Of a DNA stretch of 64,000 nt, positions 43,259-52,359 are shown in pieces; position 1 is the stretch's first letter, and each line of letters opens with the position of its first letter. The stretch covers positions 62,001 to 126,000 of the forward strand of contig JAAXWC010000002.1 of assembly GCA_013335175.1 (NCBI GenBank), read 5' to 3'. Below the pieces are notes generated by a model. It did no database searches. It worked only from the letters and a program-made list of their open reading frames with translations, and was not told the DNA's origin. Origin of the DNA: Candidatus Roizmanbacteria bacterium. Its GTDB lineage: Bacteria > Patescibacteriota > Microgenomatia > UBA1406 > GWC2-37-13. The position numbers were made by a program, and so were the translations under genes.

Positions 43259-44590
43259 TTATCTCTTCTTCAGCAAAAATATTGTTTCTATAAAAGATGG
43301 TAAGCGAAAGAACGAACCTCGGACAATCGATACCTCTTCCTGATCTACAAAAAGCCGATGCCAGTATTTTTTGGGAAAAACCGAAATATGAGAAAAATCG
43401 CGCTTATGGAAATAGGAAATGTAGGTATTTTCCTGAGTATACATTTTATGTAAAATATATTTTTTCGAAACACGAATTGTTTCATCTACAGCTTTTTTTA
43501 TCTTTGAACGTTCCAAATGCTCTAATACATCGAATGAGAATACCAATTCAAACTGAGCATCTTCATAGGGAATTTTCACAACATCTCCCAGTTTCAAATA
43601 TGGTTTCATCTGATCTTCGGCCATCGCAATTGCGTCCTTAGAAATTTCAACGCCATATGCGTCAATACCAAATGATCGTAAAATACGAACTAACTCCCCT
43701 GTCCCACACCCAATATCGAGACAATTTTTTGGATTAATAAAAAATTTAATCAGAATAGCTCGATAATAGGTTACGACTGTACGTAGTAATTTAGTAAAAA
43801 AAGGATCTGCATATCCCAATCGATATCCTCGTTTCGCGTGCTTGTGCGTGTAATACTCGCGATCATAAAAGCTCGCATCTATGCGATACGGCATAATAAT
43901 AGTACCTTTAAAAGAATCTCCCTCTACTATTTTTGTGAGATTTTTAAAATCGGTACCATTAGTTACGATAACAGTTAGACCAAGTTTTTTTGCAAGCTGA
44001 GCCGCTACCGGATCAAAGGGAGTATTAATCCCCGGAGACCACGTTACACCTACCAAACTTTCCATTTCATTCCATGTCATTCGTTTGATTGGCTTTGCAT
44101 TTGGGTTTTGAGAAGGATCTGAATCATATACCCAATCTATATTGGACATATTTACAATTACATTTGCACCATAATCTCTTGCCAATATAACGGCATCATA
44201 ATCGGTAGACCAACCGGGTTTCCAACCTGCGCCAATTACCACTGGTTCTTTCCACTTATGAAGTTTTTTATCGTAATTCTCGATAATACGAGGGTGTGCA
44301 ATGTCTTGAAATATCGTTCGAAGTAAATGTCCGTTCAAATGAGTTGCGTGTATTCCTAACCAATCTAAATCCTCGTTAGAAAGTGAACCAATCACCGATT
44401 TCCCCGCATCGCGGTACTGACGAGCAGTTCGCCCGCCACCAGATACCAAGAAGAACCGCTTTCCTTTTTTTACCTGACCACGAATAAAGGTATTTAATCT
44501 TTTTAAAAATACTGTATCAATGCCTCCACTCGGAGAAATGAGGCTACCGCCAACAGAGAGAATTATAGGTGGCTCTTTATAGTGGATCAT
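43259..44590 (-). CDS. UMP kinase (archaeal-type) fused to a SAM-dependent methyltransferase
   Basis: A 443-residue fusion. Residues about 1-230 are an amino-acid-kinase-fold UMP kinase of the archaeal type: ILSVGGSLI, SGGGRTARQYRDAG, a Thr-Asp-Tyr-Asp-Ala segment, SNIDWVYDSDP and FDPVAAQLAKKLG with VTNGTD. It makes UDP from UMP. Residues about 275-443 are a class I methyltransferase: motif I LDIGCGTGEL (about 286-295), GVEISKDAIAMA and FSFDVLEHL. The methyl acceptor is unknown. The ATG at 44590 is chosen; a TTG at 44602 lies in the leader's T run. The leader holds a terminator and a short reading frame. Confidence 0.88.
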   Translation of the reverse strand: MIHYKEPPIILSVGGSLISPSGGIDTVFLKRLNTFIRGQVKKGKRFFLVSGGGRTARQYRDAGKSVIGSLSNEDLDWLGIHATHLNGHLLRTIFQDIAHPRIIENYDKKLHKWKEPVVIGAGWKPGWSTDYDAVILARDYGANVIVNMSNIDWVYDSDPSQNPNAKPIKRMTWNEMESLVGVTWSPGINTPFDPVAAQLAKKLGLTVIVTNGTDFKNLTKIVEGDSFKGTIIMPYRIDASFYDREYYTHKHAKRGYRLGYADPFFTKLLRTVVTYYRAILIKFFINPKNCLDIGCGTGELVRILRSFGIDAYGVEISKDAIAMAEDQMKPYLKLGDVVKIPYEDAQFELVFSFDVLEHLERSKIKKAVDETIRVSKKYILHKMYTQENTYISYFHKRDFSHISVFPKKYWHRLFVDQEEVSIVRGSFFRLPSFIETIFLLKKR

Positions 44591-44600
44591 ATCTTTTCGC

Positions 44601-44638
44601 AAAAAAAATCCCGCTGCCTCTTCGTTTATTTGCGGGAT
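44601..44638 (-). terminator. Terminator hairpin in the UMP kinase leader (candidate attenuator)
   Basis: On the minus strand ATCCCGC (44638-44632) pairs with GCGGGAT (44614-44608) over a 17-base loop, followed directly by a T7-8 run, 11 bases before the start codon. The next gene upstream diverges, so the only transcript to terminate is that of the UMP kinase gene itself. Confidence 0.6.
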
Positions 44639-45597: not shown

Positions 45598-45871
45598 CAT
45601 AGGAGACAATCAATAGTATAAACCCAATCAGCCCTGTTGTGATTTTTGCCTTCGCTGACTTCACTTTTTCCGGATTTCCTTGAGACATCATAAAGTTATA
45701 CCCTCCCCATATAAGGACTAAAAGAAGAATAATGGCAGCAAATGGAATCATAAAATTGGTAATTGCACTTATGATATCGGCTAAACTAGGATTTTTATTT
45801 CCGTTAATATTGAGAGGACCAGATATTCGCTGATTATTAATCGTGAATTGTTGGGCAAGAAGGTTATGCAT
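45545..45871 (-). CDS. VirB2/TrbC-like pilin subunit
   Basis: A 108-residue protein with two hydrophobic helices (about 43-62 and 77-100) joined by a short cytoplasmic loop GNPEKVKSAKAK. This is the hallmark of VirB2/TrbC-like T4SS pilins and their CPR relatives, preceded by an outside N-terminal stretch. It overlaps the M50-like gene by 8 bases and the converging nucleotidyltransferase gene by 53 bases. The same N-P-E-K-x-K-K/S-A loop appears in a larger protein at 56948-57832, so the island encodes two pilin-like proteins. Confidence 0.75.
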   Translation of the reverse strand: MHNLLAQQFTINNQRISGPLNINGNKNPSLADIISAITNFMIPFAAIILLLVLIWGGYNFMMSQGNPEKVKSAKAKITTGLIGFILLIVSYVIVSLVSMIFGLGKGLF

Positions 45872-46538
45872 ATTTAAAAACTTTTCGTAACAGTACTAAT
45901 AATAAAATGAGTCCACTGTGAATGCAAATGGTAAAAAACATGTATCCGTTAATTGAGCTAAAAAACTGCACGATATCGGCAATAATCGTATATTTTGTGT
46001 TCACGAAAGAAAATATATTGATGTTAAAAATATAGAGTATCGCTCCAATGACTAAAACCAATGGAATCATAAAAACTGCATCCACTAAATCTTGCTTTGA
46101 AGAAAACATAGACGTTGAAATGCTAAAAATAAGAAAAATGAGTACGGCATTGATGGCAATATTGGGCTGCGGGAATATGTGAAAATAGGAAATAATCCAC
46201 AAAAAAAATAATCCGCCAAAAACCGGAGCAATACCAACAATAAAACCACTGATTACATCTCGTTTTTCGTACAATACCCTTCCCAGTTTAATTCCTTTAT
46301 CTTCCCATTGAGGCAAAATGGTAATATCACGAACACGCATGACAAGCGCAATCGCCATAAAAAAGTGGCTAATTTCGTGGATAAGCGTTCCGGGAAGAAA
46401 TAACAAAGAAATGAGGACGAAAACAAGCTTTTCGCTTTTGAATATCCAACGGAGCGAAAAAAATAATTCCCGAATTGAAACCCGAGAAAGAAAATACAGA
46501 ATTATAAGCTGCAAAAAAAAGAGGAGAACCGATATCAT
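45864..46538 (-). CDS. M50-like membrane metalloprotease
   Basis: A 224-residue protein with about six hydrophobic helices. HEISH (residues 54-58), inside the second helix, is a zinc-binding HExxH as in site-2-type (M50) proteases; the expected distal Asp motif is less clear (candidates are in the 145-155 region with QDLVDAVF). It may process membrane anchors or signal peptides of neighbouring pilin-like proteins (inference), since it overlaps the pilin gene by 8 bases. A member with lost catalysis cannot be excluded. Confidence 0.65.
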   Translation of the reverse strand: MISVLLFFLQLIILYFLSRVSIRELFFSLRWIFKSEKLVFVLISLLFLPGTLIHEISHFFMAIALVMRVRDITILPQWEDKGIKLGRVLYEKRDVISGFIVGIAPVFGGLFFLWIISYFHIFPQPNIAINAVLIFLIFSISTSMFSSKQDLVDAVFMIPLVLVIGAILYIFNINIFSFVNTKYTIIADIVQFFSSINGYMFFTICIHSGLILLLVLLRKVFKYA

Positions 46539-46577: not shown

Positions 46578-49500
46578 CTACTCTGCTTTTTGCAATTCTG
46601 TGCCATCTCCTTGTTCGGGAGGCTGAACTACCGGAGGCTGGGCCGTTGGGGAAGGTTCCGTAGCCGGCGGTTCCGATGGAACGGGTTCTGGTTTTGCGGC
46701 CTTTGGGACCGTGTTTTCTCGAACTTTTGAAGAAATACACTTTGGACAGATCGTGGTAGCATGAGCATTAACCTCTGTTTTAAATACACTGTGACATGCA
46801 GTACACACAAACTCTTTCTGCGCTTGTTGAGCTGCTTCTTCGGGCGAAACAAGTTCTACCGTTTCTACGTTGAAAACAAAACTTTCACCATCAAAATCAA
46901 CCTGTACGGTATCGCCCGGTTTTAATTTACCATCAATAATTAGCGTAGAAATTGGATTTTCGACCAATTTTTGGATCGCTCTGCGTAAAGGTCGTGCTCC
47001 AAAGAGAGGATCAAATCCGGCTCGTGCTATCTCTTTTATTGCGGCGTCTGTATAGGCAAATCCCATTTCCTGGTCTTCCAACAACTTCCCTACCCCCTTC
47101 ATTTGAAGGGCAACGATTTTTGTCATATGCTCAAAACGAAGCGGTTCAAATACAATCACTTCATCAAATCGGTTAATCAGTTCTGGACGGAAGAACTTTC
47201 GCAGTTCACCCATGAGCTTCTCTTTTAATCCGGCATACTGTGTGCTTGCCGATTCTGATTCGATAGAATTATGTTCTGCTAATTCCTGTTCCAAGGGGAA
47301 ATCTGCACCAAAGTACTCTCCCAATGCAGTTTTTTTCCACTCTTTCGAATCCTTTTCCCGTGTCCAGATAAACTCACCAACGACAATAATTTCTTTTCCT
47401 TGCGGAGAAAATGCATGAATATCCCAGTACTCAGTAGGAAATTTTCCCTCTGCACTATTTTGCTCTTTAAAATAATCAGCCAATGTTCCCGTTTCCCACT
47501 CATTTACCGACTCATTCCGTCGCCAGAATCTGTCTTCGTAGGTAATTATTTCCTGTTTCTCAGGACTAAAGGCATGCGTTTTCCAGGAAATAGTGGGCAA
47601 CTGTTCCTGGGGAGCATCTGCGGTAGCATTGGTAACCGTATTATCTTTTGTGTAATCAATAAGAGAAAGCGATTTCCAGGTTTTCCCGGTCGTCGAGGCC
47701 TTGATAAGCACCAAATCCCCTTTGGAAATAATCTCAACTCCGTCTGCAGAAATGGCATGCGTATCAAATCCTTGAATAGGGAATGCTTGCTCTGTTTCGG
47801 GATCTCCCTCTTTACGAGGCGCATCTTCAAATTTTTGACCAGCAAAATAATCCAACAACATATTCTGGTGCCAGCTCCTATCGGTTGCACTTTCATCTCG
47901 TTCAAAATATTTTGCACCAATCGAGAGTATCTCTCTACCGCGGGGTGAGAATGTATAGGTAGAAAGTATCGGAGGTATTTTTATATCAGTCTTTCCTTCT
48001 TTTATCAGTTCATCTTGAATCAATTGACTCCCCAAATTAGAGGTACAAATAATGACAGTGTTTTTAAAAGAAATTACGTGTCCTTTATTGTCTGTCAGAC
48101 GACCATCATCCAGTATTTGAAGTAGGATGTTAAAAATATCCGGATGAGCTTTTTCGACCTCGTCAAAAAGAACCACGGAATACGGTTTTCTTCGCACAGC
48201 TTCGGTAAGTTTACCACCCTCTTCATATCCAACATATCCCGGAGGTGCGCCCAGCAATTTTGCAACTTCGTGTTTTTCCATGTACTCCGTCATATCAAAT
48301 CGGATCATTGCTTCTTCCTGTCCAAACAGCACATCTGCTAAGGTTTTTGCTAGTTCTGTCTTTCCAACACCGGTTGGCCCCGCAAAGATAAAGCTCCCGA
48401 TAGGACGACCTGCCGACTTAAGGCCTGCCCGTCCCCGCTTTACCGCCTCAGCAACTGAGGTAACAGCCACATCCTGACCGATAAGCCGCTTATGCATAAT
48501 CTCCTCCAAATGAGCTAGTTTCTCTGTTTCCGAACCACTAATTTTGGCGACCGGAATACCGGTCCACCGAGCGACTATATCCTTAATGATAGGTTCGGAA
48601 ATTTCAGTGGTCGTTTGTGCTTTTTTTGTGTTGAAGGCCTCTCGTTTTTCGTTCAACTCTGCTCCAATATCATCAAGTTTTGATCGTGTTATCCGTGCCT
48701 TCACTCGATCTCCCGTTTTATCCGATTCCACTGCCTCTTGTTTCAATTGAGCGATACGATCTTCGAGAGACTTAATTTCCTCGGGGAGTGATAATAAAGG
48801 CAACCGAACTGCCGATGCGGCTTCATCGATAAGATCTACTGCTTTATCGGGAAGGAATCTATCCCCAACATAGCGTTTGGATAATTTTACAGATGCTTCG
48901 ATTACGGCATCGGGAATTTTTACTTTATGAAATGCTTCGTATTTGTCGCGAAGCGCTTTTACCATTTTAATAGCTTGTTCTTCTGTTGGCTCCGGGACTA
49001 CTACTTGCTGAAATCTTCGTTCCAACGCCGGATCTTTTTCAATATATTTACGATACTCGGTAATGGTTGTTGCTCCAATGAGCTGCATTTCCCCACGAGC
49101 AAGGGCTGGTTTTAAGAAATTAGAAGCATCCAAAGCTCCATCCCCAGAGGCTCCCGCACCAACTATGGTATGAATTTCATCAATAAAAAGAATAACCTTC
49201 CCCTGAGAAGATTTTACCTCCTCGATAAGATTTTTCATTCGTTCTTCAAACTCACCCCGATGAGAAGCTCCCGCAAGAGTACTCATAAGATCTAGCTGAA
49301 GAATTCGTTTGTCGAGAAGAGATTCAGGGACCTGTTTTGAAATAATTTTAAAGGCTAAACCCTCTACAATAGCCGTTTTCCCAACTCCCGGTTCTCCAAC
49401 AAGAGCCGGATTATTTTTTGTTCTCCGAGAAAGGATATGAATAACTCGTTCAATTACTTCAGAACGTTCAACCACTGGATCAAGTTGCCCGGATGCCGCC

Positions 49501-50429
49501 TTCGCAGTAAGGTCTATCGTAAACTGTTCAAGCATACTTTTTTGCTTTTCTTTCTGTTGCTGATCTTCTGTTAATCCTTCTTTTTTGCCGATAATTTTCT
49601 TATTTAAATCTTCTTTTTTTAACCCCAATTTGGTAAGCACCCGAGCAGCAACTCCTTCGCCTTCATCAAACAACGCCAATAAAAGATGTTCCGGTGAAAT
49701 AAACTCAAAGCCAATCTTCCGCGCTATAACAAGCGAATTATCAACAACGAGTTTTACCCGGGGAGACATTTGGGGAACACCCTTATAATTACTGCGGCGA
49801 TACAGTTTTATGAGCTCTTCTTCTACGGTTTGCGGCTGAATTTTTTGTTCTGTGAATAGTTTATAAATTTCTCCATCAGAAAGCAGCCCGTGAAGAATAT
49901 GCTCTGTATCTACATAATTGCTTTGCAGCTCTTTTGCTTTCGTATTCGCCGAAAGAAAAACCCGATTTGAACGCTGCGTAAGATGCGTCATAACGTCTAA
50001 ATCTGATCGTTTCTGATTATTTAGGGTTGAAGTAAGTGCAGGCGCACCTCCCGACGAAGGAGTCGTTTTTACTTCGTGAGGAGTCCCTTTGAGCGATTCA
50101 AGAGTTTTTGATTCATCTTTCGACGTACTCTCTTCTATCTTTTGTTTATCATTATTTTGTGGTGAAGAAATAGGCGTTAGTTGTGCAGGTTGAACCACAG
50201 ATGGGACCGATCCTGTTACCTGAGTTGGGGTTGGTGTTTGAAAAACTCCTGAGGTAGTCTGTGGCTGGGGCACCGTAATTGGCGTCGGCTCTGATATGAG
50301 AACCTGTTGTTCATTTACGGATGAACTTTGTGTGGATGTATCCGGGATTGATTGGGGAATAGAAGCCTGAGGAACATTTGTCGTTGCATTTGGTGGAGTT
50401 TTTTTTATAAAATCAAATATGCCTGCCAT
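46578..50429 (-). CDS. clpC: ClpC/ClpB-type AAA+ unfoldase with a four-repeat insertion in the second ATPase domain
   Basis: A 1283-residue HSP100 protein. Residues about 1-125 are low-complexity (Pro/Thr/Gln/Ser). A ClpN-like double repeat follows (about 130-280). AAA-1 has [15 protein letters not shown] and a Lys/Glu helical middle region. AAA-2 has [30 protein letters not shown] and TSNLGS, then an insertion of about 250 residues (about 815-1070) before the arginine-finger region [14 protein letters not shown]. The insertion holds four copies of a 40-residue unit (consensus HAFSP-x-G-x-EII ... DYF). A zinc ribbon (VCTACHS, CPKC) and a Pro-rich tail end the protein. The ATG at 50429 is supported by a promoter 6 bases upstream. 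Confidence 0.9.
47230..48000 (-). repeat. Protein-level repeat array inside clpC
   Basis: Four imperfect repeats lie near 47845-47965, 47650-47772, 47468-47590 and 47310-47430, about 55-62 codons apart. Examples are [39 protein letters not shown] and [13 protein letters not shown], each ending about 30 residues later in a DYF/DYT/EYF-like triplet. Confidence 0.8.
50384..50411 (+). promoter_or_regulatory. Promoter of the CHAP-domain gene, inside clpC
   Basis: TTGCAT (50384-50389), 16-base spacer, TATAAA (50406-50411); the ATG at 50419 follows after 7 bases. It lies within the first codons of clpC on the other strand. Confidence 0.45.
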
Positions 50430-52359
50430 GGAATCATTATGGAGAACTGCTAACAATTTGTCAATTCGGTATAAAAAAAGCTATGCTTTTGGATTGTTGC
50501 TGAGCCTCATTTCATTATTTTTTCTTATAACATCCCCCGTACAAGCGCAAACCAGTTGTGCAAAAATAAACAGTGTTTCTGTGAGTACCAGCGAAGTTGA
50601 ATCCGGGAAAATGTTTAACTGCACCGTAGCAGTGGACAAAGCATCGGTTGCTACCTCTCAGAGCTCCATTGCGTGCGGGATTCGATTTGACGGTGGATGG
50701 CCCCTTGACTTTTGTCCTTCTACCTCGGATACGTTTGGTGGGTGGGATGCGCAGGGGAATGCAGTTTTTCACTGTGTTATTCCCGACACGAATATCTCTG
50801 CGAAAAAAGTGGAAGCCGTCGGGTATGATTTTCAGTCGGAATGCGGCCCTAGCACGGGTGCAACAACGGAAATTAAACTAAAAGTGACTGATACAAAGGA
50901 ACAACCGACATCGGTCGATACACAGCTAGACAAAGTAAAAACTCTTTTACGCGCCTTACTCGGCACTGATAGTCCTTTGAATGGGGGTAGTTATTCAAAT
51001 TCTGCCGCTTCGTACCCGAATGCAACCTATGATGCCGTCGGCCCTGCATGCTATACAGAGTCCGGTGCTCTTCCTCCCATGAAAGCCCCTAATTATGCGG
51101 CACTTGGCCTTCCGCAACCGGTAACTTCCGGTACAAATGGAGTCGATGCACTGATAAAACAGATTACAGCAAATGCCAGAGCTGTCTGGACGATTAATGA
51201 ACTTCTATCTGCGGAAAAAACAGTTCTCTCAAAAGATCCTGGCTTACTTCAAAATCCGTACCTCATTACCGCGTGGCTTTGGTTTGAAAACGGTGCTTCT
51301 GCATATCCTGATATATATGAAATAAACTGTAATGATACCGATTCCCTTTCTCAAGTTTCAGTTATGTGTAATTCGACCAATTTTCAAATTGCAGGATATC
51401 AGGTCTCAGGTCATAAAACTCAATTCTTAAGTTATTATAATAAGTACTTTGCTGCAAGCCAACTTCCCGGTGTATTGCAAAAAGTGATTGATAATAGTAC
51501 GGCTGCATCCCGTCCACAGTGGAGTTATCTCAATGCCGACCAAAAAAAGGGGCTATTGAAATATCTCCAGGGAGGATCCGGTGTTCCTAACAGCCTCAGC
51601 ATAAACGATATCTCTTCGGGAAATGATCTCCTTTCGGATGAACGAAAGCAATTCTTTACCCTCATTTTAGGAAAAAATCCATTAATGGTCGTATTATTAA
51701 ATAGCACGACGGTAAATGGGCTCGCCGATTCGCTCAAGGCAGGCGGCACTATTTATGGGTATATCGGTGAATCGCAAAAGCAGCTTATTTCGAATATGCT
51801 CCAAGCGTTATATAAATACGATAGCATCATAAATTTTGTAAACACGGGATTACAAGTCTTGAAAGATATAAATGCCGCATTGGTAGTGCAAAGAATCCAG
51901 CAACAATGTACCCAAGCAGGCAATGCCGGGCGCGTAACAGCAAATAACTCAGGATGTGTCGATGGAACAATTAGTAGTTCGCTTGCCGTTTCCAAATGGA
52001 AACAGTCGGCAAATGACTATTTCTATCTTCAGTGCGTAGGTTTTGTATATGGTATGGAAGGTGCAGTTGGAGGTAAAAATATGTACTGTTCAGGGAACGC
52101 AAAAGATTTTTTATCAACCTGTCCCGCAACTGGCCAGTACATAACAATACAAAACACCGGCTCAACGAGCACTATGAAAGTAGGAGATGCAGTGGTATGG
52201 ACCGGAGGAACGTGGGGACATATTGCTTTTGTTTCAAAAATTTATGATAGTAAGACATTTCAAGTAGCAGAGGCCAATTATGACGGGGCAGGTTCGGTTC
52301 GTATTTCAAATGTTACGGTAGACAGTCCAGGTCTCGGAGGCTGGCTCCGCTCAAAATAA
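50419..52359 (+). CDS. Secreted CHAP-domain peptidoglycan hydrolase
   Basis: A 646-residue exported protein. A signal/anchor helix (about 22-42) is followed by an Ig-like Cys-rich domain (about 45-155) that is clearly similar to one in the protein at 53098. A long helical middle (about 220-500) leads to a C-terminal CHAP amidase/endopeptidase domain: Cys539 in [25 protein letters not shown] with His601, and [12 protein letters not shown] enzymes cut peptide bonds in the cell wall. It starts an operon with Ig-like, SLT and membrane proteins, so it may open the wall for a T4SS-like machine. ATG 50428 is an alternative start. Confidence 0.82.
50436..50464 (-). promoter_or_regulatory. Promoter of clpC, inside the CHAP gene
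   Basis: On the minus strand TTGACA (50464-50459), 17-base spacer, CATAAT (50441-50436), then 6 bases to the ATG at 50429. It lies within the start of the divergent CHAP gene. A leaderless clpC mRNA is predicted. Confidence 0.6.

Follow-up and report, generated by a model that had tools for sequence, protein, structure and literature searches.

Hsp100 motors are defined by what docks at the exit of their ring. The ClpP-binding element of Clp ATPases is a loop carrying an [L/I/V]G[F/L] tripeptide (IGL/F) (PMC5540906, PMC8745299), and the ClpB/Hsp104 disaggregases have no IGF tripeptide (PMC5540906). Exchange of the docking region changes the partner, as in BAP, an engineered ClpB with the ClpP-binding region of ClpA (PMC4023160). 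In a ClpC gene from Candidatus Roizmanbacteria, evolution appears to have done the reverse of what engineers did when they moved the docking region of ClpA into ClpB. The gene lies in a stretch of 64,000 nucleotides, called the window.

The window protein has in common with ClpC of B. subtilis and S. aureus the N-domain, D1, a short middle region, D2, D2-small and the Walker and arginine-finger segments. It differs in having a predicted propeller in place of the VGF/AGF loop, an extra N-terminal tail and a putative C-terminal zinc ribbon, and its genome is without detectable ClpP. Like the ClpB/Hsp104 disaggregases it would be a protease-free Hsp100 without the IGF tripeptide (PMC5540906), but ClpB has a short turn at the site instead of a propeller. 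As in BAP, the docking region at the exit end of D2 has been exchanged (PMC4023160). However, BAP is man-made and gains ClpP binding, whereas the window ClpC appears to be a natural exchange of a whole domain and the ClpP-binding motif is absent. With hemopexin-like domains (MMP-14, hemopexin, vitronectin and plant albumins) the predicted model of the insert shares a four-bladed fold (TM-score 0.6-0.7), although identity is about 10%, no Pfam match is above cut-off, there is no disulfide cysteine and the insert is cytosolic.

Protein quality control in bacteria with such reduced genomes has been little studied. Literature searches found no paper joining ClpC with Roizmanbacteria, Microgenomates with ClpP and ClpC, or Patescibacteria with ClpP and proteolysis, and a search on ClpC, beta-propeller, insertion and AAA+ matched one paper, a review on apicomplexan effector trafficking.

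The ClpC gene and its motor

The 1292-aa ORF at 46578-50456 (reverse strand) is an intact ClpC-type Hsp100 (Table 1). Translation probably begins at the ATG at 50429, the start conserved in relatives, and not at the TTG at 50456 given by the ORF tool. Pfam matches reveal Clp_N, D1, D2 and D2-small, so that the protein has the Clp N-domain, two AAA+ modules and D2-small lid of a class I Hsp100, and among solved structures the best sequence match in the PDB is B. subtilis ClpC (E 3e-235). The middle domain is of the short ClpC type, an orthologue lacking the insert (L034) being collinear with B. subtilis ClpC there without large gaps. The score against the NCBIfam ClpB equivalog TIGR03346 was 952 bits, below its cut-off of 1232.

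Table 1. Positions of features of the window ClpC (window coordinates) and of related repeat proteins (locus coordinates)
Feature	Position	Strand	Basis
ClpC-type Hsp100 unfoldase gene	46578..50429	-	Pfam Clp_N, AAA, AAA_lid_9, AAA_2, ClpB_D2-small; 1283 aa from conserved start
D2 sensor-1 segment TSNLGS, then helix leading into insert	48027..48044	-	sequence
Predicted four-bladed beta-propeller inserted in D2 where the ClpP-docking VGF loop would be	47271..47972	-	AF2, Foldseek, B. subtilis ClpC alignment
Blade/repeat 1, ends MLLDYFAGQ	47835..47972	-	repeat profiles; predicted strands E3-8, E13-18, E21-26, E35-38
Blade/repeat 2, ends LIDYTKDN	47640..47774	-	repeat profiles; four predicted strands
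Blade 2-3 linker, family consensus VVINALPDAPDEQLPT	47592..47639	-	column conservation
Blade/repeat 3, ends LADYFKEQ	47460..47591	-	repeat profiles; four predicted strands
Blade/repeat 4, ends LGEYFGAD	47301..47432	-	repeat profiles; four predicted strands
D2 helix and arginine-finger segment after insert	47166..47198	-	sequence
C-terminal zinc-ribbon-like CxxC...CxxC	46719..46814	-	Pfam Zn_ribbon_8 PF09723, E 0.0028, below cut-off
Secreted or anchored CPR repeat proteins	L108:3-2372, L108:4491-6779, L109:3635-6034, L118:2605-3375		profile match

Both rings have Walker A and B, and the protein also contains the D2 pore loop (GYVG) and the arginine-finger segments; the motor therefore looks competent by sequence. 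In the window clade His takes the place of the aromatic residue in the D1 pore loop (ASHRGEFE vs TKYRGEFE) and, given this change, substrate translocation by the window ClpC is putative.

The preliminary description had noted a disordered N-terminus and a C-terminal zinc ribbon. The former is real, about 149 aa preceding the N-domain and opening with a conserved peptide. For the latter the Pfam match is weak, but the CxxC...CxxC pair occurs in 54 of 63 orthologue sequences. The conserved start peptide (window 50380-50429) is followed by a disordered tail in the N-termini of L010-L105 also, and may possibly bind a membrane or a partner. Short YSGIG/YNGIG motifs occur in the tail of 45 of 65 sequences, in up to five copies, with none in the window copy.

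Predicted fold and site of the inserted domain

An insertion in the second AAA+ domain of ClpC, reported from a first inspection of the letters, was borne out: 276 residues separate TSNLGS (aa 805) from the segment at aa 1087. The insert itself is about 235 residues long and lies between the helix following sensor 1 and the helix ahead of FRPELINR. The four imperfect repeats seen at that stage are genuine (about 40-46 residues each); their starts are 66, 61 and 53 aa apart, against the spacing of 55-62 first given. Profiles were built from 43 homologues, one per repeat. Each matches the other three repeats at 21-46 bits compared with a maximum of 8-16 bits for shuffled sequences (about 1,800-1,900 per profile), showing repetition far beyond chance.

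AlphaFold2 prediction of the insert alone, using the 43 homologues, gave a pLDDT of 94.1 and a pTM of 0.89, with four strands and a short helix per repeat (4 x 4 strands in total). The insert was folded alone because only AAA+ domains were among the Foldseek matches listed for a model of D2 plus insert. Against the PDB, hemopexin-type four-bladed propellers made up most of the best 31 Foldseek matches listed; MMP-14, plant albumins, hemopexin and vitronectin were matched at E of about 1e-8 to 1e-6 (best 1.7e-8) and TM 0.6-0.7. Thus, the insert is predicted with high confidence to be a four-bladed beta-propeller whose nearest relatives by fold are hemopexin domains. Pfam, NCBIfam and PDB sequence searches gave no match to the insert, nor did they reveal any common domain already described at this place in ClpC. 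The hemopexin repeat signature (PF00045) had no match in the window insert and a best E of 0.049, in one of 30 members, and the window insert contains no cysteine with which to form the disulfide between blades 1 and 4 of hemopexin. The domain is therefore hemopexin-like by predicted fold but falls outside the hemopexin family by sequence. Three PDB matches to Sla1 SH3 (E 0.2-0.3) were at chance level.

In a phmmer comparison of L034, without the insert, with B. subtilis ClpC, the insertion falls on the loop KYVGFNVQ. This VGF loop is the short loop which a normal ClpC had been noted to have here, and in T. thermophilus ClpB there is only a short turn at the site. Both the window ClpC and the orthologues without the insert lack the [L/I/V]G[F/L] docking tripeptide at this position. 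ClpP (PF00574) had no match in the window genome, which is rated 100% complete (the PF00574 control was positive in 12 of 14). Within the class sample, 43 of the 47 genomes carrying the insert had no PF00574 match, and all 11 genomes in which ClpP was matched strongly (E < 1e-40) lacked the insert. Together, the site, the missing tripeptide and undetected ClpP argue that the insert sits where ClpP would dock, in an unfoldase that has no ClpP. Fold and site of the insert are both well supported.

The preliminary description had envisaged a substrate- or partner-binding platform on the outer surface of the ring. As the replaced loop is the ClpP-docking VGF/IGF loop, the propeller would by homology sit on the protease-facing exit face of the ring, and the outer-surface location is not upheld. 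Neither the docking role of the loop nor the lack of ClpP had been noticed at that stage. A binding platform is nevertheless its most likely role, since the high-confidence prediction is of a four-bladed beta-propeller and such folds usually bind proteins.

Three further Clp-type ATPases are encoded on contigs C17, C30 and C37 (L056-L058) of G000, a genome without detectable ClpP. For L056 and L058, the D2 segments that were read show no VGF loop.

Distribution, history and relatives of the insert

The insert was present in 47 of 373 genomes sampled from the class, almost always within ClpC, and named carriers are Candidatus Roizmanbacteria, Gottesmanbacteria and similar MAGs. A phylum-wide sample of 380 genomes gave three matches: the genome of the window, G065 from the same class and a weak one outside the class. 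Sister genomes, from which an artefact would be missing, do contain the insert, with several secondary losses; its presence in dozens of independently assembled genomes rules out an assembly artefact.

In a ClpC tree built without the insert columns, the root separates two groups that both contain carriers, and orthologues lacking the insert are scattered. Parsimony gives five changes, at least three of which are forced by well-supported branches. This pattern fits one ancient gain followed by several losses. The losses are clean, leaving a loop of 40-70 residues, and in L043 about 116 residues with no recognisable repeats are kept at the site.

Every ClpC copy uncut by a contig end has exactly four repeats, with the exception of one gene (L046, the same as L090), where a second complete four-repeat propeller is nested in the strand c-d loop of blade 1 to give eight. 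Variation in insert length is due to low-complexity linkers between blades and to this one nested duplication of a whole domain. A variable tandem array was ruled out because the copy number is fixed at four.

A 353-residue ORF in G040 (L107:5665-6723) has four repeats on a truncated piece of D2. It occupies the syntenic place of ClpC, upstream of an M50-like gene and a pilin. The N-domain, D1 and D2-small are gone and both Walker A (GPTGPAKT) and Walker B (IVHFANIEN) are degenerate, making the remnant ATPase-dead by sequence. It may be a decaying gene or pseudogene, or a standalone propeller with a use of its own.

Between close pairs, dN/dS was approximately 0.03-0.13 for the insert and 0.01-0.04 for D1/D2, ratios which are rough as dS is high in all pairs. 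The insert evolves about three to nine times faster than D2; it is under purifying selection, constrained but less tightly than D1/D2. Of the non-strand segments of the domain, the linker between blades 2 and 3 is one of the best conserved, a hint that it serves in binding or packing as well as in keeping the fold together.

The repeat family also occurs in secreted proteins of other CPR genomes, with weaker but significant matches (L108, L109 and L118; E 2e-20 to 2e-5). Among the L108/L109 proteins, one has DUF2961 and a weak dockerin match and another a glycoside-hydrolase-like part and a dockerin domain, the dockerin-like part being C-terminal in both; L118 encodes a membrane-anchored repeat protein in a genome outside the class. 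The repeat of these proteins falls under no library family. By profile they belong to the same family as the ClpC insert but, unlike it, they have a signal peptide or membrane anchor and lie outside any ATPase. Since the same repeats are found in secreted and anchored proteins, a surface propeller is a plausible source of the ClpC insert, the direction of transfer being putative.

Possible roles of the propeller and the gene neighbourhood

As the docking loop has been swapped and ClpP is missing, a rewiring of the unfoldase to some other partner is probable. A two-ring AAA+ ClpC would have given up ClpP, and the hydrophobic VGF loop on D2 would have been replaced by a complete hemopexin-like four-bladed propeller. 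From homology, we infer that six propellers would form a crown around the channel exit of the hexamer. With two ATPase sites and a D2 pore loop that look intact, the motor would still pull substrates through. ClpC would then work as a protease-free unfoldase or remodeller, with its crown docking a partner other than ClpP, or holding the emerging chain, at the exit. We give this reading, a ClpP-free unfoldase whose docking loop was exchanged for a propeller with one of these two functions, a probability of about one half. If the crown does bind a partner, this would point to an unfoldase complex of a new kind, in bacteria whose genomes are very reduced. More tentative is a fuller version, in which a Microgenomatia ClpC that lost ClpP took up a surface-type propeller in the docking loop and now feeds or couples to a new partner through the six-propeller crown, an Hsp100 partnership not described before. 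A point against the rewired unfoldase is that the insert was lost several times while the ATPase stayed; the insert is thus not essential to the motor. A further point against it is that no neighbouring gene stands out as a partner.

These losses, together with the distant relatives in secreted or membrane-anchored proteins, are what might be expected of a tolerated passenger, a self-folding propeller from the surface or secreted pool which settled in a loop freed by the absence of ClpP and persists there, harmless, with little function. This is the main rival, though a rather unlikely one. Its faster evolution than D2 might be a further mark of a tolerated insert, as may the variable low-complexity expansions between blades. 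However, a passenger sits poorly with the occurrence of carriers to either side of the root in the sampled tree, with the constant number of four blades, with a highly conserved non-strand linker (NALPDAPDEQLPT) and with retention of the propeller in the ATPase-dead remnant. By homology, six copies would lie side by side at the D2 end, where contacts between subunits or between tail-to-tail rings, rather than binding of a third protein, could set the assembly state or ATPase rate. Ring-ring assemblies of S. aureus ClpC in its resting state use other contacts. Such resting states have been solved (S. aureus ClpC decamer, 9qqr), but orthologues without the insert are otherwise the same protein, and control of oligomerization or activity is unlikely. 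MMP hemopexin domains recruit substrate and inhibitors. The fold analogy to them (Foldseek) raises the idea of an exosite that captures substrates or adaptors and hands them to the pore; this is improbable, as Hsp100 substrates enter at the N-domain/D1 end and the insert is by homology at the opposite, exit end. The existence of insert-bearing, insert-less, duplicated and ATPase-dead versions provides a natural set with which the question is directly testable.

Scarcely credible is a tether to neighbouring membrane proteins, an M50-like metalloprotease and a T4SS-type pilin, to form an envelope machine. ClpC, the M50-like gene and the pilin are adjacent in many genomes, and the G040 remnant is directly upstream of the other two. 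For the neighbourhood, 12 window genes were compared with all loci by tblastn, and genomes were searched with the M50-like protein. A widely conserved order at ClpC loci is ClpC, M50-like (HEISH), T4SS-type pilin, amino-acid-kinase/methyltransferase and RecF/SMC-like, but no neighbour among the 12 genes co-varies with the insert across the loci. The M50-like gene is independent of it, several carriers lacking this neighbour and five orthologues without the insert retaining it, and the T4SS-type pilin also flanks orthologues without the insert. In addition, two genomes (L122 and L123) have kept the M50-like gene and pilin at a locus that has lost ClpC. The CHAP and Big_5 genes adjoining the window copy are at only eight ClpC loci each. 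The proposal that the insertion is linked to the adjacent envelope machine, and tied to the same island, is thus unsupported.

The HEISH protein (window 45864-46538) is a membrane protein resembling a minimal M50/site-2-type metalloprotease; it has no Pfam match and usually adjoins ClpC and the T4SS-type pilin. In L122 and L123 a single-helix membrane protein of about 110 aa is found in ClpC's stead, upstream of the M50-like gene. A fusion of amino-acid-kinase and methyltransferase domains (window 43259-44602) is conserved beside ClpC across the group.
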